Shown piece after piece: positions 808-32,627 of a DNA stretch of 64,000 nucleotides. A program made the translations under genes and the position numbers. The stretch covers positions 2,051,001 to 2,115,000 of the forward strand of contig NC_058510.1 of the NCBI RefSeq assembly GCF_020382885.2, given 5' to 3'. Positions within the stretch are counted from its first letter, which is position 1; each line of letters begins with the position of its first letter. The notes under the pieces were generated by a model that had not been told where the DNA came from, did no database searches, and worked only from the letters and a program-made list of their open reading frames with translations. Source of the stretch: Scatophagus argus (lineage: Eukaryota; Chordata; Actinopteri; Scatophagidae).

Positions 808-3800
808 TCATTGCTTCTTCACTTGAGCGTAGATATCGTCTGTGCCGCCAGCAGTCGGTGTTGAGCTGTTGGCCGGCTTGGACGTGTTGACCTGCGCATA
901 CAGCGTGTCCTCCTGCTGTCTGCTGTCCCGCACTGAGGACGAGGACGGTTCGGGTCTCCGCTTGGAGAAGTCGATCTCTCCGTAATGGATGTTTTCTTCT
1001 CCTGCTTCTGTCTGGCTCTGCAAAATCATGAGCCCAAAAGGAAATGAAATGAAATGAGAGGCACAGCTGTGGAGCCAGTGTGAACAGATGTAAAACGTTC
1101 AAAAGCTGAGCAGTTTTCCACAGGGACGTTCACTAGTTTCACACCTGAGTCTGTTGTGGAGTCTGTTGTGGAGTCTGTTGTGGAGCAGAACGTTTCTTCT
1201 TTAAAAGCCTGGAGGACGGGAGAAGCTTTGAGATGAACTAAACCGTGTCTTAGGTTAGCACACAGCGTGCCAGCAAAGTGTCAAAGGCTGATGGGTACTT
1301 TTACACGTGCGGCTAAAATGTCAGCGCCGCTAACTGTGTGATGTATCTGCCTCGACTTGTGACACTCACCAAACAAGAACAACAAGCAGACCGATGAGCA
1401 CCATGATCCCGATGATCCCTCCAACAACTGCTTGCCATTGAGAGCCAGCAGGAGCTCCTGAGAGAAAAACAAGACCGGCACAAAGCGCCAAATGATGACA
1501 AGCAACAGAGCTGAGGGAAGCTGCTTTGAAAGAACGGTTTTGTAAGCCACCTGTTGCTCCACACTGGAAGAAGTTGAACTGCAGCCAAGCCACACGAGTG
1601 AGAAAACCAGAACAGACAACCGAAGCTACGACAAAATGCACCAACTTCTGTTCACGCTTAAATAGCAATAATCAGTACTTGTGACCAACTCGCACTTGAT
1701 GTATTCATGGTTTCTGTTGCTTTTGGAGTTCAGAATTGGATAAATGAGGTAAGTGGGGTAAAGTGGGAGGCTGAGTGCTCCCCATCCAACACCCAGCGAT
1801 GAACTTGGCCTTCGTTTTGATCTGAACGACACACCTGTAGCTGTGGAGTGATGACAACATCCGTCCACAGACAGACAGACTGACAAATGAGGCACGTGGT
1901 GAAGAACTCAGGTTTCTGTGGTAGCTTCTGCCACAATAATACCATTCTTTGACCAAAATTAGCACTTTTTTATGCAAGGATAAACCCACTAAAAATGGGC
2001 GACTGACTCCTTTCTCATTAGCAGCAGACGAGTTGGACTTTCTGTATCGTTTGCTTGGTGTGTCATGTTCGATGTCGCCAATGCGCCGGAAAAGAAAGAA
2101 TAGAAATCAGCAGAACATGAATGTCAACAGACCAGGAGGCTTTCGAGCTTGTCAATAACTTTTTGAATTTTTTTACAGACTGACAAGGTGAAAACACAAC
2201 CAGCCACACAGTCGCAGCTGGTAAAAAACAAATTATACAGCAACAAGACACTTTTAGCATACAGCAAGAAGACGAACGAAGAGGAAAAACAGATAAGATT
2301 GAAGCCAGTGGATTTGGTAAAGTGACTGTACTACCTTCAATATCAATACGGATTATTGATGAGTGATTGCCAAGCTCATTTGTGGCCACGCAGTAATAAA
2401 CTCCTCCTTCTGTCACATTAAAGCTGTAAAAGTGTCCTTCAGATACCAACGTGGGTCCATCTTTGCTGATCCTGAACCAGCTGAAGCTGACAGGAGGTTT
2501 GGCTCTGCTGGAGCAGGTCAGGTTCACCCAGCTACCTGCTGACACCAAACCTGATGGACTGATGGACACTGAGGTGTCCTTGGGAGCATCTGAGGACAAA
2601 TGTGAGATGAACTTTATTCATTAAAGCCAGATGACATCATCATGTGCTGACAGGAAACAAACTCTGGTTGTCTCACATGACACACTGAGAGTCTTTGTCT
2701 CCTGGGCCGTCCTGACATCTTTTCCTTCATTCACAGGATATGTGGCAGAACAGGTGATGTTGTTTCCATCATGTTGGTCTGACAGAGTGATGGTCTCCTG
2801 GATTTTAGTTGTAAAGGTTCCATCTGCGTTTTCCTCCGTGTTGTTGCGAGTGTCTTGTTGGAGACTCCAGGTGAGTTGAGGAGGGGAGTGTGGACAGGGA
2901 GTGACAGCTGAGCAGGTTATAGTGACAGACTGCTCCTCCTTCAGATCACCTGAGATCTCACCTGAGATCTCAATTCTGGGCCTCGGAGGAGAATCTGTGC
3001 TTTGCCAAAGTTTGACCGTTTTAATGTCAAAGCGTAACAGCAGACTCAGTGTTTAATCAGAGTTTAGATTCGTGACAAAGAGAAAAACAACAGCATGACA
3101 GACTGACAGAAAGAAACAAAACTTACCTTGAACTCTTATTTGAACAGATTCACAAATATCTGTCGCCACGAGTGGTCGATTCTCAGCTCTGAAGTAGTAC
3201 CTGTCTGTGTAACTTGTTAATAAACTGGAAAACAGAGTGGTGCAGTCTTTCTCACTCAGGTTTCCAGTAATCCTCATTGGATAGGTTTTAACTGTCTCAC
3301 TACTGTTGAAGATCACATTTTCTGGTTTGCTGCCAAAAAATGGGTTACTTTTAATCCACACTCCAAAGGTTTTTCTGCTGCCGTCAAACTCTTGTTCTGA
3401 CCGAAATGTAAAGCTACATGGGATTTGCAAACAAGATCCATTCAGTGCTTCCATCTTCTTTGGTGCAGTAATGAAGAGGTCTGAATCACCAGGACAAGCA
3501 GCCAAAACACCTGTAAAATGAGTTTCATCGTGAACTAAATGATGATTATGTATTTACTGTTTGCACTGTGCATACAAACTACATACACACACACCCTTTT
3601 CACCGGAATAATTTATTTACCATTGTATTCATGTAAAATGTTTATATATGCTGTAAACCCCTGTCACTAATACAGTAAATATTATGTAATATTGTATTAC
3701 TACTTGCACTTGTACATAAATAATTCATTTAAACAAGAAGACAGCAACCTCTCCTGAATCCTCCACAACATCTACCTGCCCACAACATTTCCAGACAGAC

Positions 3801-3904
3801 ACCTGCGATCTTAGTAAGAGCTCACCTGAAACAAAGACGACACTCAGCGTGATGGCTGTCACCATATTCCCAGACACGACTGCAGTGACCCCCATCGCCT
3901 GCAT
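808..3904 (-). CDS. Siglec-like receptor copy 1 (inhibitory type, ITIM tail)
   Basis: Seven exons, coding: 3826-3904 (signal peptide), 3127-3510 (V-set), 2677-2994 (C2), 2335-2589 (second C2-like), 1370-1457 (TM), 1145-1208 and 808-1017 (tail). They sum to 1398 nt (465 aa) with consistent phases. If the second ATG at 3895 is used, the product is 462 aa; copies 2 and 3 have starts nearby, so the exact ATG is uncertain. The V domain has Siglec-style cysteines (CLQIPCSF, EKDCTTLF) and a YYFR motif (Arg near residue 134) at the position of the sialic-acid-binding arginine of mammalian Siglecs. The C2 domain has the extra Cys (TPCP) that pairs with the V domain in that family. The TM helix (GGIIGIMVLIGLLVVLVW) has no charge. 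The tail carries IHYGEI (ITIM), TLYAQV (ITSM-like TxYxxV) and DIYAQV. Expected role, inferred from the family: surface lectin that recruits SHP phosphatases to damp leukocyte signalling. Fish databases may call it CD22-like or MAG-like; orthology is not resolved. Confidence 0.88.
1145..1208 (-). repeat. Coding 12-bp tandem repeat in juxtamembrane exon of Siglec-like copy 1
   Basis: This short exon lies between the TM and ITIM exons. It has a strong pyrimidine tract and AG acceptor and a GTGTGA donor. In frame it reads LLKKKRSA, then PQQT three times, then ends in TQ. The 12-bp unit is repeated about three times (roughly 1148-1187). The equivalent exons of copy 2 (8502-8541) and copy 3 (15107-15143) are shorter and lack the repeat, so the linker between membrane and ITIM has grown by repeat expansion in copy 1. 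Confidence 0.7.
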
Positions 3905-8081: not shown

Positions 8082-11000
8082 TCAGCATCGTGTTAAAGTG
8101 TTTGCCATCTTGGACACTTTGACCTGTGCATACAGTGTGTCCTGATGCTGTCCACCGTCCTGCACCGAGGCCTGAGGTCCCCACCTGGAGAAGTCGATCT
8201 CCCCGTAATGGATGTCTTCGGTTGTTTTGGCTGTCTTTGGCTCTTCAGCTGTTAGGCTCTGTGAAAATGGACGAAACGAGAAAATGTTGTGAGGAGCTGA
8301 AGTTTTTGTTGCTGTGCCACAAAGAAATTATGTACTTGTAGATACCAGTGTATGAATAATGTGGGTTGTAAACAGGATGTTTCCTCACATTTCCTGTGTT
8401 TCTCCATGTTAACTGACTAATGAGTAACCTATTTGGTCAAGTCTACTTCCTGTGAGTGCAGTCAATGTGAACACACACTTCTGAACTTAGTATTTTCCTA
8501 CCTGTGTCAGCTGTAAAGTTGGATGTCTTGATTTTAACCACCTGGAAAACATAAGAAGGCAGTCAGAATAATTGTTTGTGTACTAATGATAATAATAACC
8601 TAAAGTCTTTATGTACTTGTGCATTTAACAGCTTTCATTGTTTACAGTTACAGAGTGCTTTAAACACAGTTCAAATCATCACTGAAAAAGACAGCAACTG
8701 CTGCCATTGCAATAAATACACAAAAGTGATTCATTTCACAAATTAAAGAGGTCTTTCACCTGTTTTAGATTTGAAAAGTGAATAAAAACATTTCAGATCT
8801 AAAACTTTGACTTTGTCAGAGTAATAACAGTAATATAGTTATAACATTGGGGATTTGATGAAGACACACTTTAAAATTAATTCATTTTTATCTGTAACTG
8901 GACTGATAATTGGAAAAAAATGCTGGATCCAATAATTGAGCCAGGCCGAAAATTTCCCATATCATAAGGATAATTAAGTCATATTTATAAAAGAGAAAGC
9001 AACAGGATTGTGTAACTGCAGTGATGTGGTTTGTTAGATTTAATTCACTATAAAAGAAGGTCTGGTTTCTGCAGATTGATTAACGTTTGAAGACCGGGAT
9101 CTAAAGTTTCTGTCAGCAACACTGATATCCACCCATTTCCAAAACTTAACACCAATTTAGCAAGTGAAGTTATGTGATATTTAGAGGCTCAAGAGAAAAG
9201 AATTATGTCATCTGCATAGAAATAAATATCTGTGTTGTTACATGTGCATTGTGACCCTGAGGCGGCATTTACACACAACAGTAGTGGTCCAACAATAGAA
9301 CTCTGAGAACTTTTGATTTTGAATTCTCAGTAACAGTAAAAATAAAAAAACACACTGAATTTAAGGAAGTGATACCGTCTGCATTCAATACCACATCTCA
9401 GTATAACCGAACACACACACACACACACACGAGTTTCATGCTAGCTATAGCCCTTCTCAAGGGACAGCGCTGCAAGCTCATTGAGAAAAAAAAAACAAAA
9501 ACATTGCCCCCCTAAAAAAGGAAACTATGAAACAAAAGAGATTAGCGCCGTGGTACAAATCTGAGATCCACAAGTTAAAGCAAAACACACAAAACTCGAA
9601 AGGTTGCCATGGATCATGTCTGGATCTCCTGCTGTGGTTCTGCTTGACACCGACGACTGTTATTAATGCCTGTTATATTTCTGCATTATTATTATTACTA
9701 CTCTTACTATTACTACCACTACTATCAAAATCATTATTGTTAATACTGTCATTGTCATTCCAATATTCTGTTGTTATCAGTGTCCCGCTCTCCATATCTC
9801 TCTTTCCCTCTGACTGAAAAGTGTGATGAGACAACTGCTGTTGTGATTTGGTGCTGTACAAATAAACTGAACTGAACTGAACTGAACTGATGATGGGATA
9901 TATTGATATTGATTGATATTCATTTGAGAAACTTACCAAACGGTCACAACCACACAGATGAGAACAATAATCCCGATGATTCCTCCAACAACTGGGCCCC
10001 ACGAGCTACCAGGCTGCTCTGTAATCAGCCAGATGCAAAAATGCTGTGGGTAACTTATGTGTGGAGACATGTGTGGAATTATTTTTACACACTTGAGTAA
10101 TGTCAGAAAACTTGAAAACAAATGTCGGCAAAGACAAAAGAGACACTTCTGCAAAACTCATTATGGAAATTCATTTGTTTCACTTGTGCTTTTTCATCTG
10201 TTACTGAAAGTTGTTTCTCTCCTGTCTTTACCCAGTGTCATTTTTCAAATCATACAGTAACTCAAAAAATCATCACACCTATTGAATTCAAGTTTTTACA
10301 TGACATACATAAATGAAATCTAATTTTATTACATAAGCTCAATGTGAGAGGTCACATTTAAGTTTTCATGTCATGTTGAGTCAATGAGTATAAATTATAT
10401 AACCTGATTATGATTTTATTACGGGAGACTGGGTTTCAAATACTTTACTTTTATATATAATACTTGAATAATAAACTGTTGAGGAAACACATTACTCTTA
10501 TATAGAAATTCTTAATATTTAATGAATAAACACATAAGGCTTATGTGTAAGTTTTATTTAATTCATACACACTGACTCAGCATGATAGAAAAAGCGTGAT
10601 TAGATTATGGGGATTCAATATGTAATTAACGTACAGTCAAAATTTTAAGAATCATCACTTTTGTTGTTTTCTGTATTTTCAGCCTCTTTGGTTTGTCATA
10701 TTGTCAAGTCAGCTTGTCCTTTTTAGATGTTTACCTTTGTTAGGCAGGTGGACATCTGATGATTGTTGTCTACCAAGGTGATTTGTGGCCACGCAGTAAT
10801 AAACTCCTCCTTCTGTCACATTAAAGCTGTAAAAGTGTCCTTCAGATACCAACGTGGGTCCATCTTTGCTGATCCTGAACCAGCTGAAGCTGACAGGAGG
10901 CTTGGCTCTGCTGGAGCAGGTCAGGTTCACCCAGCTACCTGCTGACACCAAACCTGATGGACTGATGGACACTGAGGTGTCCTTGGGAGCATCTGAGGAC

Positions 11001-12248
11001 AAATGTGAGATGAACTTTATTCATTAAAGCCAGATGACATCATCATGTGCTGACAGGAAACAAACTCTGGTTGTCTCACATGACACACTGAGAGTCTTTG
11101 TCTCCTGGGCCGTCCTGACATCTTTTCCTTCATTCACAGGATATGTGGCAGAACAGGTGATGTTGTTTCCATCATGTTGGTCTGACAGAGTGATGGTCTC
11201 CTGGATTTTAGTTGTAAAGGTTCCATCTGCGTTTTCCTCCATGTTGTTGCGAGCGTCTTGTTGGAGACTCCAGGTGAGTTGAGGAGGGGAGTGTGGACAG
11301 GGAGTGACAGCTGAGCAGGTTATAGTGACAGACTGCTCCTCTTTCAGATCACCTGAGATCTCAATTCTGGGCCTCGGAGGAGAATCTGTGCTTTCAAATC
11401 CAAAATTTACACAACAGAATACGACACGTCATGGCTTGTACATTTGAGCCTTTTAGTGTAAAAACTATAATGAAATTTCTGTCAGTTTTGTTGTCTAGAT
11501 TTTTCCCCCGATAAAGAAGAGGAAGTGATGGAAGGTCAACACCTTCCCTTTTTTCTCTGTTCATGCCAATGCGTTCGCTTTTAACAGCAATGCAGTGAAG
11601 GTAAAGGTCAACAACATGATGGACTGACTGAAAGAAACAAAACGTACCTCGAACTGTTATTTTAACAGGATCGCAGGAAGCCGTTGCAGTCAATGATTTG
11701 CTCTCAATTCTGAAGTAGTACGTGTCTGTGTACCTTGTTAATAAACTGGAAAACAGAGTGGTGCAGTCTTTCTCACTCAGGTTTCCAGTAATCCTCATTG
11801 GATAGGTGTTAACTGTCCCACTGCTGTTGAAAATCACGTTGTTAAAATCGTTTCCAAATGCGGAGTCATGTTTAATCCACACTCCGAACGTTTCTCCCCT
11901 GCCGTCAAACGTTTGTCCCATTTTAGGTGTAAATTTACATGGGACTTGCAAACAAGATCCACTCAGTGCTTCCATCTTCATCTTTGGTGCAGTAATGAAG
12001 AGGACTGCTGGCTTAGGACAAGCAGCCAAAACACCTGTGAACCAGACATGTGGTGAACAGATTATGGAAAAAAGATGCACCAAGCGCCAGCACGCTGAAT
12101 GCTGGCCTTTTTTTCTTTAATTCTCTGTATGAAAAAGTGACACTTTGCTTAAAGTAACTTCTCCAAATAACTGAATAAACTGCTCACCCGAAACTAACAA
12201 GAATCCCAACAACACGCTGGCTGTCACCACATTCACAGACGGAAACAT
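8082..12248 (-). CDS. Siglec-like receptor copy 2 (inhibitory type, ITIM tail)
   Basis: Exons: 12188-12248 (signal, starts MFPSVNVV), 11648-12034 (V-set), 11080-11385 (C2), 10735-10992 (second C2-like), 9937-10018 (TM), 8502-8541 and 8082-8258 (tail). They total 1311 nt, 436 aa, phases consistent. The V domain keeps the Siglec cysteines and a YYFR arginine (YYFRIES). The TM (GGIIGIIVLICVVVTVW) carries no charged residue. The tail has IHYGEI (ITIM) and TLYAQV (ITSM-like) but lacks the third tyrosine of copy 1. Predicted inhibitory sialic-acid receptor of leukocytes, inferred from the family. Compared with copy 1, the C2 exon, the following intron and most of the third domain are almost identical, whereas the V exon and the end of the third domain differ. 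The intron between TM and tail exons contains an L2-like retroelement fragment, and the 3' UTR runs into a hAT-like element. Confidence 0.87.
9411..9430. repeat. (AC)10 microsatellite
   Basis: Pure AC dinucleotide run in the intron of Siglec-like copy 2 between its TM and first tail exon. Confidence 0.95.
9530..9890 (+). mobile_element. 5'-truncated L2/Maui-like LINE 3' end
   Basis: The segment starts with a frame containing APWYKSEIHKLKQ, which resembles the conserved APW..ELR motif near the end of fish LINE reverse-transcriptase ORFs. It continues through a TTATTATTACTA-rich 3' UTR and ends TTGTGATTTGGTGCTGTACAAATAAACTGAACTGAACTGA. A TTGTGATTTGGCGC-like 3' end with a short tandem tail is typical of L2-type elements. 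It lies on the plus strand in an intron of Siglec-like copy 2. Family assignment is from memory of the consensus and is moderate. Confidence 0.6.
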
Positions 12249-14662: not shown

Positions 14663-17467
14663 TCAAGGCCCTCTGATTCCGGACGACAGCTCGAACGCTG
14701 TGTTGACATAGTCTGCTTCGACTGCATCCTGCGGGGATGGGACAAAGTGGTCTTAGCTGGAAGAGTTTTGGTCAGTGCGAAGCTTTATGAGGGGGGCTGG
14801 GCTGCCCCCAAGTGGATGGAAATAAATGAATGCAGGTTTAAATCTGTTTTGCGTCAGTTCCTTTTATTAAAAGGAGTACAGTCAGAGTGTAATCAGCAGT
14901 CTGTGTTTTCCTGGATGGTTAAAGTGAACCACAGCATAAAGCAGTTAGCAGAACATTTACACAGACTGCATGCCGTGGTTCACACCTTAGCTGGCAGGTC
15001 AACCTCCTCTCTTGGTTTAGGGACAAATAAATATGGACAAAAGTGTGTGAAAATGAGCCGTTGAGTTGATTGACGACAATGAGCCCCTCCTTATCTAGTA
15101 GCTTACCTTGATTGGTTTGGCGGCGTGTTTTGATCTGAACCAACTGGAAGAAAAAGATGGTGAAGTTAAGTGAGTTACAGTCTGAGACCGATTTGTCTGT
15201 GGCTGTAGACTACGATGGGGGAAAGTTTGTCTCACCACTCAAAGATCACTAACGAACTGACGAGCATTGCGATTGCCAGGCTCTTCACTATAACTTCGAT
15301 GCCAGCCAGGTGAGACTTTTGATCGGCTGTAACACAACAGTCGCGGTCACCTTTGAAGATTTCACTGCTCTGAACCATCACAACCCATAATTCCTTCCTG
15401 TTACCTTTAAATCTCAGCTGTCGTCCTGTTGATAACTGAATGTCCACGCTGTTTCTGCATCCACAATAGAACAATCTGCCTCGGTCACCGTTGGTCACAC
15501 GAAAGCCGTAAACCTGGGTGTCAGCTTTGATCAGTTCCAGCCTGCCAGTACTGATCATGAACCAGACGAAGTGGACAATGTGAGGGTTTCCTCTGCAGGA
15601 GCAAGTCAGGTTCACCATGCTGCCAACTGACACTGGATCAGAGGGACTGATGACCACTGTCGTGTCCTTGGGAGGGTCTGAAATAAGACCAGTCATTATT
15701 TATAAACCGTTTGCAGCCTTCTTTGTGGCAACAGAAGCTTTCACACATCAAACGGAACATATCTGTGGTTTCAGAGACGAACGATGCTAACATTTACACC
15801 TGGTGACTGGGCTGCACTTTGCTACATACGATCTGAGCTTCATGCTGAAGTGCATCACCTCAGAATTGGATGAAGTACAGTCTTAGGAACTTGGGGTGCC
15901 GCCTGCGAACATCTTTAAAAAAAAATAATAATAGAATGAAGTCTCACATAACACACTGAGAGTCTTTCTCCTCTGGGTTCTCCTGACACCTTTTCCTTCA
16001 TTCACAGGATATGTGGCAGAACAGGTGATGTTGTTTCCATCATGTTGGTCTGACAGAGTGATGGTCTCCTGGATTTTAGTTGTAAAGGTTCCATCTGCGT
16101 TTTCCTCCATGTTGTTGCGAGCGTCTTGTTGGAGACTCCAGGTGAGTTGAGGAGGGGAGTGTGGACAGGGAGTGACAGCTGAGCAGGTTATAGTGACAGA
16201 CTGCTCCTCCTTCAGATCACCTGAGATCTCACCTGAGATCTCAATTCTGGGCCTCGGAGGAGAATCTGTGCTTTCAAATCAGATTTTACACAACAGAATG
16301 CAATACGTTATGTCTTGTACCTGTGAGAGACTTGAGATTGAGAAAGATAAGAAGTGTTCCTTACCTTTAACTGTTATTTGAACAGGATCACAAAATGCTG
16401 TTGCTCTGACTGCCGAGCTCTCAATTCTAAAGAAATATTTGTTTGTGTGATTTTGACTTAAATTGGAAAACAATGTGGTGCAGTTTTTCTCACTGAGCTT
16501 CCCAATAATTCTTAATGGATATCTGTTGATGCTGCTGCTGCTGTTGAAAACCACATTGCCTTTAGAAACTCTAGTGTCATTTTTAAGCCATACACCAAAG
16601 GCAGATGTTGTGCTCAATTCTCCTTCAAGTTTTGTGTTAAAGCTACATGGGATTTGTAGACAAGATTCACTTAGGGCTTCCATCTCCTTTGGTGCAGTAA
16701 TGAAGAGGCTTGAATACTCAGGACAAGCACCCAGAACACCTGTGAAACCAGATTAACATCACATGTAAAATCTTCATGTAGAAAATGCCAAGACTAGCTA
16801 AGCTAATTTGCAACAGCATGTTTTATAAGAAAAACTTTGTACATGGAATGTCACCAAAATACAGAACAAACAAAAACAAAATACAGTTGTTTCCTGATAC
16901 TGAAAACAAAGAAGAAAAACTTTAACAGAAGTGCAGATGGTTTGTTTCCTTTATAAACATGTTTGCTGTTGGTAATATGAATGTAATTTCTGCAGGGTCG
17001 ATTTCAGCAGTAAAATTTGCCACTTGGGTCTTTTTTACAGTACTGTACTGTACTTTTGTACAGTTTTTAATGATACAGTTTGGTCTGCAACAAGCAGATA
17101 ACAAAGTCTCCTTAGTTTGAGCTTAACCAAGTTTTGTAACTGTTTCACTGCAAGTGCTTTATAACTTTGGGCGCACTGGTGCCCCGGCCCTCAGAAAACC
17201 TAAGTCCGCCCCTGCTCTTACAAGATCAAACCCAGCAGAGACCAAACCGTCCACAACCACAGTCAGCTCTGTGTCACTGTGTTTTCATCAGAAAACACAG
17301 ATCCTAACACTGGAAAAACAAAACACTGTGCTTTGTAGTTCACCCTGCAAATAATTCAAGTCTTTTAAAAAAAAACAGAAGTGACTGAACAAACCTGAAA
17401 CAAAGAAGACACTCAGTAACATGTTGGCTGTCCCCAAATTCACAGACACGACTGCAGTGACCCTCAT
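14663..17467 (-). CDS. Siglec-like receptor copy 3 (putative activating type)
   Basis: Exons: 17395-17467 (signal, starts MRVTAVVS), 16365-16739 (V-set), 15948-16265 (C2), 15405-15677 (second C2-like), 15236-15326 (TM), 15107-15143 and 14663-14728 (tail). Sum 1233 nt, 410 aa, phases consistent. The V domain retains the Siglec cysteines and YFFR, the candidate sialic-acid arginine. The membrane segment reads GIEVIVKSLAIAMLVSSLVIF, with a Lys (and a nearby Glu) at the outer part of the helix. The tail (WFRSKHAAKPIK plus a 21-residue exon) has no ITIM; its only tyrosine is in DYVNTAF, a YxN motif of the kind Grb2 SH2 domains bind. Mammalian activating Siglecs use a membrane Lys or Arg to pair with DAP12, so copy 3 is plausibly the activating counterpart of copies 1 and 2. 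That is inference; the ectodomain assignment is firm. Confidence 0.83.
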
Positions 17468-18324
17468 CACCTACAAATACAAACACAATAAGGTTACTTT
17501 TCAGCAGTTTGTCTGTCACGTTGGTTATTTAGTCATAAATAACCACACAAAAATCCACACATTTCCATGTCCTGTATGAACAGATGTCGCTGTAGTTTAA
17601 GCACTGATTCACAGCCGAATGTCTCGTTTCAGTGCAAATCAAACATGCATAATACAACTCTGCGGCTTAAAAGCATTCAGTAAAGTCAGCAGAAGTAAGT
17701 CAGTTTGCCTTACCAATCAAGCCCACAAGAAAAAAGGGGGAACAATGAAGTCCTATAATTGTAAAGAGAAACTGGCGCAATTCAGGAAATTGAGCTAATA
17801 GCAGGAAATATGCGTCAGTCACAAGTTTACACAAGCCTGCATGTCATGTCTTTTATTCTGAATATTTTAAACACAGTGAAGTGACATGTTTTGTTTTATT
17901 TATTGTGTGCAAAGACATCTAATTTAAGCGACAGAAGTTGTCTTGTCGAGCTCGTTATTAGACATGTCATCTAAATTCAGCTGTGCCTTTCGTCTTTAAA
18001 AACACAGTTTAGTTACTGTGGGGAAAGCAGCTGGTTGGGTAAAGAACATAAATCACACGGCGAAACCATCTTCTCAACAATCCACGCTGACAGACTTTGA
18101 GTTTAAAATAGTTTTAATCTTCTACAAAACAGGAGAAGTGCTGTAAATCAGCCCAACCACACACAGATTATCAAAAACATGTATTTGCTTTTGTGTCATC
18201 CTGATTTTCACAAATAAAAACAGCAGGACAACAAACAAACTAACATTCAAAGCAGAATCTTTCCATGCAAACTAATACTGTTTGATATGTGACGGCCTGG
18301 CACAGCAGCACATTATAAGGCGGA
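17468..18324. other. Intergenic DNA upstream of Siglec-like copy 3
   Basis: Presumed promoter and 5' UTR of copy 3. No coding exon is visible up to the isolated tail exon at 18325. Confidence 0.45.
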
Positions 18325-18402
18325 TTAAGAGAAAGTGAAATATAATTCGTCCTCTCCTTGTGGCTCATGAAGCTTGATGATTTTGCCTGCTCTTACTGCA
18401 TC
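18325..18402 (-). pseudogene. Orphan Siglec-like cytoplasmic-tail exon (relic of a fourth copy)
   Basis: After a good acceptor (TTCTTTCCAG; two AGs are possible) the minus strand reads DAVRAGKIIKLHEPQGEDEL, then YFTFS and a TAA stop at 18325-18327. The first codons (GATGCAGT, DAV) match the start of the last tail exon of copy 3 (14663-14728, DAVEADYVNT). It lies about 860 bp 5' of the copy 3 start on the same strand. I find no TM, Ig or signal exon between it and the 3' end of fen1 at 19.7 kb, so it is most likely the leftover 3' end of a deleted paralogue. Its DELYFTF tyrosine is not an ITIM or ITAM. Confidence 0.55.
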
Positions 18403-19708
18403 CTCTGGAAAGAAACAGAATCACTCACTTCCCAGAATGTTTTTCAAAATCTTCTGTCTGTCTTTGTTCTATCAGCCACCCAGTAAAGGTGGGAAATCAG
18501 AATAACAATGTTTTATTTATTAAGAATTAAAATAAATCAAGAAAAAGTGAGATCAGCTGTTGCTGCTGGAATAAGGCTGCAGCCTGGTCTGCTTTGGTCT
18601 TTAATCATTTCCCTTGAGCACAGTGTAGTTGTTGAATAATGATGCACCTCAACTCATGTAGCAGCTCACCTGAGGCCTGACATCAGCGCTGGATTATTTA
18701 CCTGATACTATCATATGTGCAATATTAACACAATAACACTGCTTCTATTTTTTATATCACAATTACAGTCAGCATTGGTATATCGAGTCATCTATTTTTA
18801 CTCTGAAATCCGTCACTATGTAGTGTAAATACACTTACTTCTCTTTGAAATTGAGGCTGTTTTTATACTGAAATCTTGCTTACTGTAGCAGAAAGCTGCA
18901 GTCCGACTGACCAACTTCCTCTATAAACTTGATTGCTTCTCTTCCTCTCTGCCACATGAACCATGAATCACTGAATCATTTCAGCATATTTAGAGCCACT
19001 CACACACTCACAGAAACCAGATGAGCCATTGGGTACAACTGAAACACCTTCCAATGGAAAGAGGAAAGAAAACAGACCCTGACTTATGATGAAGGGACCG
19101 ATTGATTATCCATCAAATGTAGTGGATTAAAAAGTACATTATGTACCTCCAAAATGCAATCAGGCAGAAGTATAAAGCATCAGAAAAATAAATGTAGCCA
19201 AAATTGTAGTCAGTACAGTCAGTACAGTACAGCGTACTTAGTCACATTTCATCTATGGTTATACTGAATTTTGACACTTTAAATTTCAATTTTTACTGCA
19301 GATGTGTATCACTTCCAAATATCAGTCATACTCACTATGAGCTCTGGAAAACAAAACAAAACAAAACAACAACAGATCAGTCGAACCTTCTTAAGATGAC
19401 CCCCAAATGAGTAAATGAAAAGTCTGATGACAAACTGGCTCTACAAAAAGACTTTTATTCACTAACGGAAAACACACTTTGATAAAACACTGAAACCATG
19501 TATTTTTTTTTTTTTATTTACATGAACAAAATCATGTTTGGTCATGCAGTTCAACAGCCGAACGAATCAGCACACACAGCCTGCTGTTGTGTATTGTATT
19601 GTTGTGTTGTGTTGCAGCTTCCTCTTGTCTCCCCCGGAGCTTTACTGCACTCTGTTTAGTAGGTGTTCTTCATTACAATAATTACCTCCTGAGGGAGTAA
19701 AGTTCAGT
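18403..19708. other. Intergenic DNA between the Siglec relic and fen1
   Basis: No gene found. It includes the fen1 3' UTR; a T-rich run at 19505-19516 gives AATAAA on the minus strand about 195 bp after the fen1 stop, a plausible poly(A) signal. Confidence 0.5.
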
Positions 19709-22700
19709 CTATTTGCCCTTCCTAAATTTGCCTGGCGTAGCTCCAGTCTTCTGCTTCTTCTTAGCTGATCCTTTGGTCTCAGGCTCCTAAGTGAGACAAA
19801 AGAAAAAAAACAAACCATACAAACATACGGTAGATGAGTAAATCTGTGAAGGCTTAAGTGCAATCGTTTTGGAAACACACAACTGGAGATTTCCTACCTT
19901 CCGCTTGGAGGACAGAGATCCAGTGACGGTGAAGAAAGAGTCCAGTCGTCCCTGCGTGCTGCCCTGTCGGCTCTTCACAATCTTCTTACATCCGTTACGT
20001 ATCCTGTCCTCACTGCGCACACACAGTCAAATCCAATCAATCAATCAAATGTCTCATCTCAAGCCGAATTTTCCATCAGCATTTAAAGACTTCAGTGTCT
20101 GAAACAAGTGACTAAAGTAGATTTTCTGACAAGCAAAAATCTTAACCGTGAAAGAATCGAACATGAGGCGACTCCTGAATGTGCACTAAAAGCTCCTGTC
20201 ACATCATCTATCAAGTCATAGTCTCCATCTCGATGTGACCAGCAGTGCAGCCTAGTGGTCAGATGTGGTATAACCGGCCGGTCACTGCAACAACCAAAGT
20301 CATCATCGATCACCAGTGAACAAACTGATGGTTCACCTGAACTGTTTCTCATTACACATGAACTGGATCAGTCCGTCCTCATCCGGCTCGCTCCACTTCA
20401 GCTCCACTGTGGAGCAATCCACCACCTCTGGATTCAGAAACAAACCCCGGGCCTCTCTGTACAGCCAGTCCTCTGGAGCAGGATGCTTCTGCACGAGGGC
20501 AAGCCAGAGACACACAGAGAGTCAGAACCAAACCCCGCTTTGTCCGACAGCCTGAACGTGTGGCCTGCAGACCGCGCAGATCAGCTTACGTTGGGGTCGA
20601 TGTTTTCCAGGATCTCCTCAATGCAGCCGTGATGTTTGATCAGGTCGATGGCTCTCTTGGGGCCGACCCCCTTGATGGTGCCGCAGTAGTCACAGCCCAG
20701 CAGAATACACAGGTCTATGAACTAAGAGGGATGACGGAAAGAAGGACTTAATGCAAGAGAGAAAGAAATGTCACTCGCGAGCTGGGCCTGGCCTGACTGT
20801 GTTTAACCATCCAAGTACTGCGACATCTCAGTGAAGAACTTGCAGTGCAGAGTTCACAGTCAGCATAATAAAAGCAGAGGAAGTGGTTTTGCTGTGCTTC
20901 ACCTTTCTCAAAGTGAGAACAAAACTTTACCTGTTCGTTGGTCAGGCCGATGTCCTGCAGGATCCGACTGAAGTGGAACTCTTGGATAGGAAGTTTCCTA
21001 AAAACAAACAAATTCAGTGGCAGACATCTGCATTTTCCAAACATCTCTGCTACAGAGTCTAACAGCAGAGGACAACGATGACGAGGGGATGCGGGTGTGA
21101 CGTTACTTTGCTTCACTGGCCGTGAGGTGTCTGAGAAGGACGTTTGTCCCAAAGGTCAGCCCGTCCATATCCTCTGTGGCTGTGGCGAAGACCTTCCCTG
21201 CTTTAACCAGAGCGGCACAGCTGGCCTCCGCCTCACAGGGAGCCTGCAACACAAAAACACATCAGACTACACGTCACAGGATTATTCACCCACAGCCGTC
21301 CGCTTACAAACCATTTCGTATGTATACAGTAAAGCAGCGGGCGTTTAACTGCACATTTCTTAGCATCTCCAGGTTTACTGAGGCTGAGAACATTCCTGTT
21401 GAGCTGTCACAGCCACAATTAAGTGATTCTTTTATGGCAAAATCGCTGTCAGTGGAAATATGGAAATATAATTCAAGCCAGCACGAGTTGCAGCAAAGTG
21501 AAATGATCAAACCTCAATGTAAGGAACGCCCATCAGGGTCAGCAGCTTCTTGCACTCGTCATTATGCTGCTTGGTGACTTTTACCAGACGCTTGGTGAAC
21601 TTGTCAATGTTCTCTTGTTCCCCTGGTCGAGACAAATAAACATTTGCAATACATTTTGATACATAACCAAAGTAAAACATTTTACATACTCTACCCCGCA
21701 AATAAAACTTACATAAAAACAGAGACTAGTTTCTTTGAGTCAAACTACAGAAGGAAGCTGTTAGCTCATCCATGAGTAGGTGCACACCTCCTCCTGCACG
21801 ATGATACGTTAAGAAAATCGTCCTTACATAAAACTGCTCACAACAAGGTATGAAAAACATCAACGGTACCCATTTCCTGGGCTTGAGCCAACTGCTTCTC
21901 AGCTTCTGCCCTCCTCTCTCCTCTCTTCTCCAGCTGGGGGTGAAGACAAGAGAAGAAGAAGAAGAAACAGGGGATGTAAGTTACAAAAAATAAAACATGA
22001 TTCGCTGTTTTAAAAGGAGGGTGAGAGCAAATTCTGACTGCACCATTTGACTTACAAACAAAAGCAAGACTACACAGCAATGAAAATAAATCTGATCCAA
22101 CTTGATATTGCAGGGAGAAAAGCGACAGAGGAGACCATACTAACCTCTGCTGACTTGAGCTGTGGGGGCTTGCCGTCAAACACGTACACAGGTTTGATGC
22201 CGTGCTCCAGCATGCGGATGGTCCGGTAGAACATTCCCATCAGGTGGCTGAGAAAAAGAACAAGCAGTTGGCAAAAATATATCAGCTGTCTGACTGTCAC
22301 AGTGTGTGTCCTGTGATGGTTGTACCTCGTCGTCTCTCCATCCTCATTCTGCAAAACATTCCCATCCTGTCGCACAGCAATCAGGAACTGGTAGATGCAC
22401 ATGGAGGCGTCAATAGCAATTTTCCTCCCTGCAAAAGTTCCCAAAAACAGTTAGTGAGTTTTATTTGTTTAAGGCATGTTCAGTACATCTGGGATTATTA
22501 ACACAATGGCATAACAGCTTCCTTTGCTATGTATAAACTGGTTTCTGTGTAAGCTTCCAGTCACTGGTCCTGATGTTAATTAATCCTTACTGTATGAATT
22601 ATAACAGCAATCTGATACAGCTATCATTTTTGGAAATCATTATGCTCTGTTCTGATTCGCCTTCCATCTTTGTTGCACAATCCCCATACACTCCAATGCA

Positions 22701-24687: not shown

Positions 24688-27600
24688 ATGCAGTGTGGAA
24701 CAGGACACCTGCCAGGTGGCTGCCAGAGGACGATGGGCCTGCACTGCGTCTTGATCCTGTGCTTGTTCTCAGGCTGGGCAGCGGGCTACAAGCAGGGGGA
24801 CAATGTGACTCTCTATGTCAACAAAGTGGGCCCTTATCATAACCCCCAGGAGACGTATCACTACTACACGCTGCCTGTTTGCAGGCCGGAGAAGGTCAGT
24901 CTTTGTTCTGACTCACTGTGTATTAATGGGCCGCTATAGGAACTGGAGATCGCTTTGTCAGGCTAATACAAATATAACACCCAAATCTCCATCTGGACAT
25001 AAAATCAAAATGTTGTCCAGAAAGTTGATCCAATGAAATGGATCCATGTTTTTCTCCCCGAGCAGGAACCATTGAGAGACTTTCATTTGGGGCTTCACTG
25101 AAGAGGAACCTCGACTCCGTTGTCAAAAATCCCATGGATGCAATTTACTGAATTTTATTGGAAGTGTGATTGTGTTACTGGCTGCAGTCCTTCAGGAACG
25201 AGCTTTGATGAAGCCTTGCCTGTTAGAACTACATCGTAGCTGTTGATGTGCTGCTTTGCTCACCGTGTTATGACCAGCAAAAGCTGCTTCTTCTGCAAGC
25301 TGTTACTCACATTGTAACACTTCACAGGTGCATCACAAGTCCCTGACTCTGGGAGAAGTGTTGGACGGTGACAGGATGGCTGAGTCATTATATCACATCC
25401 GTTTCAAAGAGAACGTGGAGAAAAAAATCCTTTGTCAACTCACTCTTACAGAGAAACAGGTACGTATTTACACAAGGATGACCAGCATGGTTTGACGTTA
25501 ATGCCTTGTAAACTGCCTCACATCATGGGTTCAGTTTCAGTATTCTGTGCCAAAGGTCACTTGAACAGCCATTGAAGTAGGTTGAGTTTAAATGTTATCC
25601 CGCAAGTGATTATTACTTAACATTTACTCAAGTTGTTCACTCAATGCTAAATTTCCCTCCTGCTCAAAAATTTGAAACAACAGGAGTTTTTAAGGTGTGC
25701 TGACAGCTTCATGAAGACAAATTTCAGGATCTGAAGCTGTCGTGGTGTGTCAAAGCTCCTATTGTATGTCAACTTTTGTAGACTATGAGGCAGAGCAAGT
25801 TGACTGCAGCTGCTGTAGTTTAATTGGGGCCAGAATACTGACAGCAAGCCTGAGTGATCAATAAAACCGTCCTGTTCTTTCCACGGCTCGTTCCGTTACG
25901 TAAACACTGAAGTCGCTGTCTTTAAAACGCACGAGATGTGACGCCGGATGTTTTGTGTCAGGTGGACGAGCTTCGTGAGGCCATCGAGGAGCTGTTCTAC
26001 TTTGAATTTGTCCTGGATGACATTCCAATCTGGGGGTTTGTGGGATACATTGAGGAGAGCGGCTTCCTGCCTCACAGCCACAAGGTAAACCTGTTGTACT
26101 TCTGAGGGTTTGTTGGATACGTGGAGCAGACTGAATGAGGGGGGGGAAGACTCTCACTCTCCCGTTTTGTCTTTGTCTCTCCTCCTGCCCTCTTCTCTCA
26201 CCTCAAACAGGTGGGTTTGTGGACTCATCTAGACTTCAATATCGAGTACAACGGCGACTCTGTGATCTTTGCTAATGTCTCCGTAAAAGACGTCAAACCC
26301 GTTCACCTGGAGGAGGGGGCGGGTGCAGCAGTTGGTGGAGTCGGGGTGGGTGGAGGCAGCCTGACGGTCACCCACACCTACAGCGTGCACTGGTTCGAGT
26401 CCCCTCTGCCTTACTCCCGCAGAGCCGAGCGCCTCCGAGACTACTCGTTCTTCCCTAAGACTCTGGAGATCCACTGGCTGTCCATCATCAACTCGCTGGT
26501 GCTGGTGGTGCTGCTGCTCGGCTTCGTCATCATCATCCTCATGCGGGTCCTTAAGAATGATTTTGCCAGGTTGGTCAGTGAAGGAGATAAAAATGAAAAC
26601 ATAAAGACTGTAAAGGATATTGAAATATCTTGCACATGGTTATTAGAGATGTTGTTAGTCAGCCAGAAAGTAAATCTACAGCGAATTTTGATCAGTGGGC
26701 CTACACAGACTCTGGTAATCACTTTCACATTTTCCTTCCCTGTGCAGCAAGTGTGACGGGTTTTATAAGCTGGGAGCTGATGTGCACGTCCATCCGGCTC
26801 TCGTATGAAATGAGTGAATATTTGTACAGCATTTACCTTCTTTGAGGTTTTATCGGTCAGAGTAAAACCGTTTACCCTGCCTGTAGCTGCATTACTATAA
26901 CAGGATATTTGCCCTCAGTCACGGACTTGCTGCTCTGTTGGGAAGCACTCATGTGTAGAGTCACAAACATGGCAATCCTAGAATTTAAACCCACATTGTG
27001 TGGAAAGGTTTCCGCCCTTACTTGAAATTAGCAGTGTGCAGACTTTGCTGTCATCTTTCTTCATGAAATGACGCCACACTTTGGATCGTTGTTTCTCCTG
27101 GACTTCGTTGTTTTGCAGAAGTGCAACTGGCAAAAACATCAGCATTGAAAAGAACTGATCCTGATCAGACCATTTGGATCCAGTTCTTCCCGTCTACTTG
27201 TTGACATTTTATAGACTAAACTTCCATATTCTCTGTTAGACAGAAATTGTATGTAAGACTGAGTGCAGGCTTTCATCTCAACTTTATCTTTCTGCAGCTC
27301 AGAACTGGGTAAAAAGTGTTTTTCCCTCCCCTGCAGGTACAATGTGGAGGAGGAGGGCGGCTGCGATGATCTGGACCAGGGAGACAATGGCTGGAAGATC
27401 ATACACACTGATGTCTTCAGGTTTCCCCCTTACAAAAGCCTGCTGTGTGCCGTGCTGGGAGTGGGGGCTCAGTTCCTTACCCTTGCCACAGGTCAGCGCT
27501 TGCTCTCAAATACACACAATCATAGCAACATACACGCCTGAATGTGTCTGGGACTGTCAGTGTTCTGTTGGAAAACTGAACAGACCTCAGATACAAGAGT

Positions 27601-29037
27601 CTGATCGCTCCAATGTCCCCTCACTGTGATAGGAATCATTGTCATGGCATTGCTGGGAATGTTCAACGTGCACCGCCACGGCGCCATCAACTCTGCAGCT
27701 ATCGTCCTGTATGCTCTGACCAGCTGCGTGTCAGGCTACGTGTCCTGCAGCTTCTACACGCAGATCAACGGCCAGCGCTGGGTGTGGAACATCATCCTCA
27801 CATCGTCGCTCTTCTCCGGTGAGTCCGATAGGATCAGTTCGCACCGAGGTTATCGAGAGCACTCGTACATGTCGAGGTTCTCGTGTCTTCAATCTGCCTG
27901 CAGCTTATTCTGTACGTTAGGATCCAGTGTTGCCAACCCTTGCAAGACAAATGAGCAGCCACAGCTTCAAAAACAAGTCCAAAATAAGCCGCCTCATTGT
28001 GAACAGGGTCAGTGAACTGGCAACAGTTTGGAAAGCGAGAACAGAATTTATTTATTAGCTTTGCTGGTTACTTTTGTGTTTTAGTTGAGGCTGAGAACTT
28101 GGAAAACATTATCCAGGAGTGAAGAGCATCATCTGGAGGGATTAAAAACAATGCCTGTCTTTTACTCACTTGGCCATTCGTCCCCCCAGCTCCTCTGTTC
28201 CTGACATGGAGTGTTGTGAACTCGATCCACTGGTGGAGCGGCTCCACCCAGGCTCTTCCGGCCACCACTGTGCTCCTCATCCTGGGCGCCTGGGTGCTGG
28301 TGGGCTTCCCGCTCACGGTCATCGGGGGCATCGTGGGAAAGAACCGAGCCGGCAGCTTCCAGGCGCCCTGCCGCACTCGCAACATCCCCCGGCAGATCCC
28401 CGCACAGCCCTGGTACAAACACGCGGCCGTGCACATGGCCATCGGCGGCTTCCTGCCCTTCAGGTGAGCTGTGCTCTCACAGGAGTTTAAAGAGCAGCCG
28501 TTTGAGGGCTTTTTAGTCTTCGTTTCTGATAAATCAGCACCATTAATTATTACTGTCAGGATTCATAAACTCCACTGTAAAAACACAAGACCTCATGAAT
28601 ATTTCTCCCCTCATCCCGCCCTTCTATACATTTTCCCCCTCAGTGCCATCTCCGTGGAGCTGTACTACATCTTTGCCACTGTTTGGGGCAGAGAGCATTA
28701 CACTCTCTACGGCATCCTGCTGTGCGTCTTTGCCATTCTCCTCTCTGTGGGCGCCTGCATCTCTGTGGCGCTCACCTACTTCCTGCTGTCTGGCGAGGAC
28801 TATCGATGGTGGTGGCGGAGCGTGCTCAGCACCGGCTCCACCGGGCTCTTCATCTTCGTCTACTCTGTTTTCTACTACCGGAATCGATCTTCCATGAGCG
28901 GCCTGGTGCAGAGCACGGAGTTCTTCGGCTACTCTCTGCTCACGGCGATGGTCTTCTCGCTGATGCTGGGCAGCGTGTCGTTCTGGGCCTCGCTGACTTT
29001 TATTCGCTACATCTACCGTAGCCTCAAGATGGACTAG
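24688..29037 (+). CDS. tm9sf1: Transmembrane 9 superfamily member 1
   Basis: Eight coding exons: 24688-24894, 25328-25459, 25962-26084, 26211-26569, 27337-27491, 27633-27818, 28190-28463, 28644-29037. Sum 1830 nt, 609 aa (human protein 606 aa). Nonaspanin family: a signal peptide (hydrophobic [16 protein letters not shown]), a luminal domain with the hallmark [13 protein letters not shown], then nine membrane segments ending in KMD, a C-terminal signal typical of TM9SF proteins. [12 protein letters not shown] and [10 protein letters not shown]-like blocks (here [15 protein letters not shown]) are conserved. Human TM9SF1 localises to endosomal/autophagosomal membranes. A second in-frame Met (MGLHC, 24733) could be the real start. 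Oddity: in exon 4 the luminal loop carries a Gly/Ala-rich insert ([15 protein letters not shown]) not found in human TM9SF1. Confidence 0.97.
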
Positions 29038-30522: not shown

Positions 30523-32627
30523 CTACTGGCTGATGTTATGTGCTACGGTGGCGTTCAAGGAGCTGCGGCCGTTCACGGGCTCCACCTCTTTGCTCTCGAA
30601 GCTCGCGTCTTGCCTGGGGTTACTGGCAGAGGCAACGCTGGCTGAACTGAAGGCACTGGGGTTGTATTCGTAGTGGCTGATGCCAGGAGGCATGGACCAG
30701 CCAGGAGCCTGAGGCGGGCCGGGGGACCACGAGGGGTATCCAGCAGCAGAGCCCATAGCTGCCACATAGAAGGCTGGGTTCTGTGGAGCCGTCTTCTTGA
30801 AGGCTGTCTCCATAATGTGCTGGTTGTAATACTCCTTGAGCTGGGGCCGGGCTTCTCCTTGATACTGAGACAAATGATAGCAATCCAAATTAGTATCCAA
30901 TTAAGTAAAATGTCTCCTATATCACAGTATCTCTGTGGTCATGTTTCGTCTCTCCTTTAAGGCCATAACTGCACTGTGGTTAAGCCTCCATTACAGACGT
31001 ATTGTTGTATGTCCGAGCTGCTGTTTCTCTGTCATCACTTAACAGGAAAGCTGGGCAGGACAATGATGAGTTCGAATTCTGCTAAATTTGTGTTATACAC
31101 TGGGAGATACTCACACACGGGATATGTGACGGGACGTTAAAGACGGTTCCGCGGACCTGACTGTCTTTATTGGTGGTGTAGCGCTCAGACACCCAGCTCG
31201 TGTCTTTCTGGTGCCTCCTCAGCTTCATCCTTCGGTTCTGAAACCAAGTCTTAACCTTCAAAGTGAGGAAATGCAATTGATCAGAAAGCGTGCGGGACAT
31301 TTTATTTTGCGGTGCATATTATTCGACGACATTCTTAAATCTCTTACCTGTTTGTAGGTCAGCCCGGTCAGTTCTGCCAGGTTCTTCATTTCAGCTGGGG
31401 GGAGGTACCTCTGCACACTGAAGCGCTGGACAAGAACATTCATCTGAGTCTCTGAGAAGGCTGCTCGGGCCTTTGCTTTAGTCACAGAGGTAGTGCTTGG
31501 CTTCTTTGGGGCAGTTAAGGGCACGTGAAGGGAGGCGACGTCGTTGGCGCTCTCGTTCCCTGTGATCACAAAGGTCCCCGGCTCCTCCATGAGAGAGCTA
31601 GAAAAGTCCTCACTGCCATCAGGGCTCCTGCTGCTTGCCTCCTCGTCAAGATCCTTTTTCACCCAGGTAGCTGGGTCTGCCTGGGGGAGACTTCCCTCTC
31701 TGCTGCTGCCAGAACTCCATGAATCTAAGAGAGGAGGAATAAACCATGAGCTCAGGTCTACAGGACCACAAACCTCAGGTATCACTCACACTGTTCTGAA
31801 GCACAGACAGGCACTTCTACAGCACATTTAAATTGTTAACAGAAAACCAACGCATAAATAGTGCCTAAATGAACCTCACTGTTTACAATATAGTTAATCC
31901 CGTTCTATACAGTGCGTTTCTTAACGGTATTCTCAAATTCTGTCGCGAGATGTCGCCATTTGGATTTTATTACCAGCACGACTAACAAAAAAAAGAATCG
32001 GTGGCGGGATATTTAGAAAACCATAAAGAGAAAGATGGATCAGAATTTGATTTCGTGGGCAACTTTGGAAGAAGAAATCTTCATCTTTAGCAACCGACAA
32101 AGAGATGTGAGCACTAACACAAATGCTTACACAGACTTTGTGTATTTAATATTGCTACCGTCTTCGTTTGCTAAAATTAGCTTCTCTGGAGAACGCTAGC
32201 TTACACGTCGGAACTACGAACCTGGCGAGATGTACGCTTCCGAGTCACTGGTTGAATCGCTCCCAGCCCGTTTGGTCTCATGTGCCCGTGGGTCGTAGGC
32301 AGCCCGGTGTGGTGCGGCCAAGAGCAGACGGCCCGTCTGTGTGTCACCGAGGTAGACAACCCCGGAGCCCTGGTAGAGACAATGGCCGTCCACGGCGTGC
32401 TGCTCCGGACTGCGAGGCGGGGACTCCTCCCGGGTCCTGGCAGTGGTGGTGAAGTAGGCCTGTGTCACCCCGGCGTTGTTGTTGCTCAAGTCTGTGACTC
32501 CAGCCTCTCCCCAGCTGGGCAGGTTTCCGAGGTTCTGTTCGGTCCCGGGCTGGTACATGAGGCTGTAGGCGTAGGCATGGTAAGAAGGGTTGTAGTTGTA
32601 ACTTATATGCGACTTCCAGTCTGCCAT
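30523..32627 (-). CDS. nanog: Homeobox protein Nanog (teleost type)
   Basis: Four exons: 32222-32627, 31348-31724, 31115-31255, 30523-30864; 1266 nt, 421 aa. The N-terminus MADWKSHISYNYNPSYHAYA is characteristic of fish Nanog. The homeodomain (about residues 220-280) spans exons 2 and 3: ARAAFSETQMNVLVQRF, then LTYKQ joined to VKTWFQNRRMK. YKQVKTWFQN, with the DNA-contacting Asn, marks Nanog. The exon 3/4 join (HIPC/YQGEARP) is in phase 0. The C-terminal region is Ser/Pro/Trp containing (PSWSPGPPQAPGWSMPPG) and has no tryptophan-repeat domain like that of mammals. Nanog is a maternal pioneer factor that opens chromatin at zygotic genome activation in zebrafish. It lies between tm9sf1 and ipo4, convergent with the former and divergent from the latter. 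Confidence 0.95.

Follow-up and report, generated by a model that had tools for sequence, protein, structure and literature searches.

Does a cluster of Siglec-like genes in the fish Scatophagus argus hold activating receptors beside inhibitory ones, and if so, which members are counterparts of each other? The question arises from a stretch of 64,000 nucleotides (C18:2051001-2115000 on contig NC_058510.1 of a 570.7 Mb genome; the whole of this stretch is called the window here), which contains three such genes, copies 1, 2 and 3. A preliminary description of the window proposed that copy 3 is an activating partner of copies 1 and 2, which it regarded as inhibitory. Copy 3 is an intact gene of seven exons on the minus strand, with its start codon beginning at 17467 and its stop codon ending at 14663, exactly the limits given in that description. 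All exons have AG/GT borders (GT-AG introns) and join into a single open frame of 410 codons (Table 1). The predicted product is a type I, activating-type receptor resembling Siglecs.

The window holds only part of the family. In a survey of the locus, 220 kb were read and the genes rebuilt; the 40 kb to the left of the window gave copy 0, and a whole-genome search with the membrane and tail exons of copy 0 reached a second, facing cluster, consisting of genes A, B and C. These three are located on the plus strand, and copies 0, 1, 2 and 3 on the minus strand. The C18 family thereby comprises seven intact genes, each with an open frame and GT-AG introns: A, B, 0 and 3 are of the activating type, versus the ITIM-bearing C, 1 and 2. 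Four of the intact copies lie outside the window on the same chromosome, three without an ITIM but with a membrane Lys (A, B and 0) and one inhibitory (C). The suggestion of a mixed activating and inhibitory Siglec-like family, initially made for the window, is strengthened by the three additional Lys-bearing, ITIM-less genes beyond what the window alone could offer.

Table 1. Coordinates of the seven family members and of their exons (window positions unless preceded by C18)
Feature	Position	Strand	Remarks
Copy 3 exon 1, signal peptide	17395..17467	-	donor GTTTGT; GTGAGC in six other copies
Copy 3 exon 2, Siglec-type V domain (by homology) with YFFR Arg	16365..16739	-	
Copy 3 exon 3, first C2 domain (C2a)	15948..16265	-	97% DNA identity to six other copies
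Copy 3 exon 4, second C2 domain (C2b)	15405..15677	-	64-66% DNA identity to six other copies
Copy 3 exon 5, membrane segment AGIEVIVKSLAIAMLVSSLVIFE	15236..15326	-	Lys codon 15283-15285
Copy 3 exon 6, juxtamembrane tail	15107..15143	-	
Copy 3 exon 7, tail end DAVEADYVNTAFELSSGIRGP	14663..14728	-	YVNT 14699-14710; without ITIM
Copy 0, Lys membrane segment FGVNVYVTVKILGIIMLYSTLFIFE	C18:2045308-2047667	-	Lys placed as in copy 3
Gene A, Lys	C18:1931065-1933714	+	
Gene B, Lys	C18:1935668-1938030	+	tail Tyr replaced by Asp
Gene C, ITIM	C18 from 1941949, last tail match to 1944879	+	
Copy 1, inhibitory	808..3895	-	uncharged membrane segment; IHYGEI, TLYAQV
Copy 1 ectodomain-side exons	3826-3895, 3127-3510, 2677-2994, 2335-2589	-	
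Copy 1 membrane and tail exons	1370-1457, 1145-1208, 808-1017	-	uncharged membrane segment in the first; IHYGEI, TLYAQV in the last
Copy 2, inhibitory	8082..12248	-	uncharged membrane segment; IHYGEI, TLYAQV
Copy 2 ectodomain-side exons	12188-12248, 11648-12034, 11080-11385, 10735-10992	-	
Copy 2 membrane and tail exons	9937-10018, 8502-8541, 8082-8258	-	uncharged membrane segment in the first; IHYGEI, TLYAQV in the last

Assignment of copy 3 to the activating kind depends on its membrane and tail exons. The membrane exon contains IEVIVKSLAIAML and is translated as ADQKSHLAGIEVIVKSLAIAMLVSSLVIFE. The tail that follows is short (about 34 residues), with a YVNT motif in the last exon and neither IHYGEI nor TLYAQV. 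Copies 1 and 2 both carry the ITIM IHYGEI together with the ITSM-like TLYAQV. Predicted membrane-insertion energies place the Lys of copy 3 inside its best segment (-0.78), near the outer end. The best segments of copies 0, A and B score -0.40, and those of copies 1, 2 and C score -4.56, -3.21 and -4.62, respectively. No basic residue is present in the segment of copy 1, and those of copies 2 and C have one only at the cytoplasmic border (a Lys in copy 2). The preliminary description was accurate on these points: copies 1 and 2 have helices without internal basic residues and tails with an ITIM and an ITSM-like motif, and copy 3 lacks an ITIM, ends in a short YVNT tail and has a Lys within its membrane segment. 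On the same scale, the best ectodomain stretches of the seven copies range from 3.00 to 4.95, their signal peptides from -0.87 to 1.05, and four human adaptor-dependent membrane segments from -2.67 to +0.30. At -0.4 and -0.8, the predicted insertion of the Lys segments is marginal and the Lys is shallow, which counts against the activating reading. When the membrane segment of copy 3 was searched against the PDB, nothing matched.

The Lys is found inside the helix in all four ITIM-less genes (3, A, B and 0) and in none of the three ITIM genes (C, 1 and 2), so that each of the four combines a basic membrane residue with a short tail and no ITIM, as in activating receptors. These are not four independent events: A, B and 0 do not differ in the DNA of their membrane exons, and the four genes therefore count as two lineages, copy 3 and A/B/0, in both of which the Lys segment appears to have been kept. 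Between copy 3 and copy 0, the membrane and tail parts share 47% protein identity, with 61 of 179 bases differing. Both have a Lys followed by 14 uncharged residues, and the last exon of copy 0, EAVEADYVNRVIEIQAS, is related to that of copy 3.

A charged membrane segment could also be a leftover in a decaying or unexpressed relic, an explanation that we consider improbable. It would fit the weak donor of the first intron of copy 3, the presence of tail cassettes without ectodomain in the locus, and the similar dN and dS (0.44 and 0.40) of the membrane and tail exons between copies 0 and 3, which give no sign of strong purifying selection there. However, the 410-codon frame has remained open despite a dS of 0.53-0.62 between the V domain of copy 3 and those of other copies, and V dN/dS of copy 3 versus the six others is 0.50-0.61. 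The state of the membrane and tail exons also argues against decay. In a neutral simulation, random base changes were introduced up to 61 of 179 differences, without indels, in 3000 runs for each of two start sequences. The Lys was retained in 35 and 40% of the runs, for which reason we rejected Lys retention alone as significant evidence; in 14 and 18% the frame stayed open. The combination of an open frame, the Lys and an insertion energy below zero survived in only 0.4% of the runs from both start sequences. The membrane segment thus looks maintained as a whole, while the Lys by itself is not significant. Judged by this anatomy, copy 3 very probably encodes an adaptor-coupled activating Siglec-like receptor. 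The predicted partner of the Lys, which lies in the outer third of the helix, is the Asp of a dimeric ITAM-bearing adaptor (FcRgamma or DAP12), through which the receptor would signal to Syk.

'Siglec-like' names are common among predicted fish genes in databases. A profile built from the V domains of the three window copies matched 16 PDB sequences at E <=0.1, of which 14 are Siglecs, with MAG as the best match (2.4e-8), followed by Siglec-10, sialoadhesin, Siglec-7, CD33 and Siglec-5; the two non-Siglec matches are antibody light chains at E 0.09. When the V and C2a domains of copy 3 were used together, 16 of 21 sequences at E <=0.01 were Siglecs (MAG and CD33 at 2.5e-10, and Siglec-10, CD22, Siglec-5, Siglec-7 and sialoadhesin), the other five being further Ig chains (best 6.1e-5). 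In three alignments, copy 3 matches Siglecs, including MAG and CD33, at the Arg and at the cysteines of its first two domains. We take this Arg to be the sialic-acid-binding F-strand Arg, and the cysteines to be the Siglec disulfide cysteines. The motif Y(Y/F)FR is present in all seven copies. By homology, the V domain of the family is of the Siglec type, and this homology and the conserved Arg suggest that the V domain of copy 3 binds a sialylated ligand. Pfam gives a weaker result for the V domain: copy 3 matches Ig_CD22 at 22 bits (cut-off 27), and copy 1 gave no Pfam match. An AlphaFold2 model of the copy 3 V domain from a three-sequence input had a pLDDT of 34.

Pairing can be followed along the genes. 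DNA identity between the Lys-bearing copy 0 and the ITIM-bearing gene C is 100% in the signal exon and intron 1, 95% in the V exon, 98% in intron 2, 100% in C2a, and 98% in both intron 3 and C2b, then 50% in intron 4 and 51% in the membrane exon. Copy 0 and copy 1 are 90% identical in the signal exon, 55% in intron 1, 92% in V, 98% in intron 2, and 99% in both C2a and C2b, followed by 46% in intron 4 and 53% in the membrane exon. Across the six pairs that combine 0, A or B with C or copy 1, identity is 92-96% in V, 99-100% in C2a and 51-53% in the membrane exon. These genes are paired receptors as read from their sequences, with a near-identical ectodomain and opposite predicted signalling parts, and by the same anatomy the family as a whole is a paired-receptor family. 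Recent duplication or gene conversion would keep A, B, C, 0 and 1 alike in their ectodomains. The likeness starts at the V exon (at the signal exon in 0, B and C) and runs through the final Ig exon, whereas the membrane and tail exons are of two unlike kinds, a plan as in Siglec-5/14 and Siglec-11/16.

Copy 3 stands apart from these pairs. Compared with the V domains of the six others, its own shows 52-57% identity at the protein level and 70-72% at the DNA level. In DNA, C2a is 97% identical to the six, versus 64-66% for C2b, 42-68% for intron 2 and 47-49% for intron 3. The near-identical stalks that had been reported for copy 3 and copies 1 and 2 are thus confined to the first C2 exon and do not extend to the second. 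A likeness in C2a, next to unlike introns 2 and 3, V and C2b, is the pattern expected of gene conversion restricted to C2a. The near-identical ligand-binding domain of paired receptors is not shared by copy 3 with copies 1 and 2; in these comparisons, copy 3 is the most divergent member of the family and not their closest partner. Of the original proposal, the activating anatomy stands, and the partnership in the form proposed is not supported.

How far this separation extends to the ligand is less certain. Copy 3 may be an adaptor-coupled activating receptor for another ligand, with 0/A/B forming the functional pairs with C and copy 1, a reading to which we give slightly better than even chances. 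It is favoured by the divergent V domain of copy 3, by the poor match of introns 2 and 3 and of C2b, and by the close identity of 0, A and B to C and copy 1 in V and C2a. Yet copy 3 has the Arg and the cysteines in common with the others, and hence possibly a common sialoside, and its first C2 exon has been homogenised with theirs. Overall, we find it likely that copy 3 encodes an activating-type Siglec-like receptor in a tandem paired family, as an older activating lineage in which V would have diverged and the first stalk exon alone would have been homogenised. Further points against this explanation are that gene B is without the tail Tyr, that Pfam recognises the V domain only weakly, that five of the 21 PDB matches of the V and C2a domains of copy 3 are not Siglecs, and that the first donor of copy 3 is weak.

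The V domains of A, B, C, 0 and 1 vary more than the adjoining parts of the genes. Among these five, 48 of 384 bases are variable in V versus 10 of 525 in C2a with introns 2 and 3 (Fisher p 1.4e-10, to be read with the reservation that sites are not independent if conversion occurred). In C2b, which was outside this comparison, 15 of 249 bases are variable. V codons vary in their amino acid in 31 cases and only silently in two, and dN exceeds dS in 10 of 10 pairs, with ratios of 1.46 to 7.83; where copy 2 or copy 3 is a member of the pair (11 pairs), V dN/dS is 0.50 to 0.96. The Arg is invariant, and 19 of the 31 changed residues fall at positions 7-12, 57-63 and 111-123, which by Siglec anatomy presumably correspond to strand A, the CC' loop and strand G.

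Activating receptors of this kind require an adaptor with a membrane Asp and an ITAM, and the genome of this species contains candidates for such adaptors. Pfam TCR_zetazeta matches six places, four of them above the cut-off; these are membrane exons with an Asp and were named by eye as FcRgamma-like (C23 and C13) and zeta-like (C24 and C11). Pfam ITAM (PF02189) finds one exon, below the cut-off, about 1 kb from the zeta-like exon on C24. A human DAP12 query gave five weak matches (best E 0.109), the fifth of which, at C9:13049145 (E 1.11), has a membrane segment with an Asp and, across two downstream exons joined by a GT-AG intron, a full ITAM, SPYQELHGVQSDVYSEL. The second match, at C9:13045930, is a DAP10-like exon; by eye, one (on C5) is CD3-chain-like and two look unrelated. 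None of the ten matches in a Pfam DAP10 search is above the cut-off of 22.9, the DAP10-like exon scoring 19.2 and 20.0 bits. This exon and the DAP12 candidate are only 3 kb apart (C9:13045921-13049240), and DAP10 and DAP12 genes adjoin in mammals. The membrane segment of the candidate has CD3 delta as its best PDB match (1.5e-5; TYROBP membrane segment 0.03). We rejected an identity as CD3 delta because the ITAM matches a TYROBP peptide (0.0056) and the DAP10-like exon is 3 kb away; the gene at C9:13049145 stays a DAP12 candidate only.

Which adaptor copy 3 would use is evenly balanced in our view between FcRgamma (or zeta) and DAP12. In catfish, IpLITR 2.6b, which has a membrane Lys, co-precipitates FcRgamma, FcRgamma-L and CD3zeta-L and not DAP12 (PMC4810170). 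Mammalian receptors with a membrane Lys, on the other hand, bind DAP12 (PMC4810170), and fish Siglec15 retains the Lys for DAP10/12 (PMC7226832). Zebrafish Nitr9 signals via Dap12 (PMC2442602). The depth of the charges leans slightly towards FcRgamma or zeta. The distance from the Lys to the next charged residue inward is 14 residues in both receptor lineages, and that from the Asp to the next charged residue or His is 15 in the four FcRgamma/zeta-like exons; for the DAP12 candidate it is 16, and for the DAP10-like exon 12. A depth difference of one residue is not decisive and does not allow a choice between FcRgamma and DAP12.

Several known systems resemble this family. SIGLEC11 and SIGLEC16, about 9 kb apart (PMC5701461, PMC6288428), have ectodomains kept alike by gene conversion (PMC5701461). 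As in that pair, one ectodomain is found on two signalling modules, in an ITIM-inhibitory and an adaptor-activating member (PMC5701461, PMC6288428). The present family differs in belonging to a fish, in its seven intact genes, of which four are activating-type and three inhibitory, and in the homogenisation of copy 3 in the first C2 exon only and not in the V exon. Fish regularly have four Siglecs, of which Siglec-15 is the activating one, and CD33-related Siglecs are stated to be absent from fish (PMC7226832). Siglec-15 likewise has a membrane Lys, which serves DAP10/12 and is conserved between fish and mammals; the genes described here form, by contrast, a tandem family with ITIM-bearing sisters, and the passages on Siglec-15 in that source mention no paired inhibitory copy (PMC7226832). 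Paired receptors as such are already known in fish. Teleost LITRs (IpLITR 2.6b) and NITRs (Nitr9) are Ig-type families with ITIM and basic-membrane members, and the latter use FcRgamma or Dap12 (PMC4810170, PMC2442602). The present genes are set apart from them by their V domains, with Siglecs making up 14 of 16 PDB matches. Among open-licence papers on Siglecs and paired receptors in fish, zebrafish or teleosts, none concerns a fish Siglec pair as judged by its title or the opening of its abstract.

It is about an even chance that the locus represents a fish-built, CD33-like paired Siglec system. In such a system, stalks would be homogenised, modules swapped at intron 4 and activating members would outnumber inhibitory ones, with V domains diversifying around an invariant Arg in a manner resembling an arms race with sialylated pathogens, and with FcRgamma perhaps used rather than DAP12. 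If true, a fish family with ITIM and Lys-membrane Siglec-like members that have their ectodomains in common would add a separate instance of paired Siglecs, and the question of whether pathogens drive such pairs could be put outside primates. The genes are also offered for testing whether a membrane Lys means DAP12 or FcRgamma in fish.

Some further features of the locus are worth recording. Activating-type tail exons without an ectodomain lie downstream of copy 1 (C18:2050364-2050630), and an activating-type membrane segment and tail, also without an ectodomain, between B and C (C18:1939539-1939993); in both, Asp replaces the tail Tyr. With the phase judged by eye, splicing of copy 1 to the former cassette, just left of the window, would be feasible in principle. 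At 18328-18405 of the window (minus strand) is a possible lone terminal exon, DAVRAGKIIKLHEPQGEDELYFTFS followed by a stop, with first bases that resemble the last exon of copy 3. We rejected a fifth gene beside copy 3 on this basis, as the resemblance covers only the first ~20 bases; no other exons were recognised around it within 18300-19700. The neighbours in the window are a gene with an XPG_N domain, FEN1-like by eye (22073-22444, minus strand), a TM9SF-like gene with an EMP70 domain (26211-29034, plus strand) and a homeodomain gene, Nanog-like by eye (31261-31785, minus strand). Searched against the whole genome, the V domain of copy 0 gave at least 21 matches. Seven are the C18 family members themselves, with E values of 2.6e-37 or better, and 14 lie on C9 (2.9e-12 to 2.9e-4). 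The 14 form a separate cluster at C9:20.76-20.98 Mb with 28-39% identity, probably of CD22/MAG-like genes, and the one 10 kb piece of it that was read has, by eye, an uncharged membrane-like stretch.
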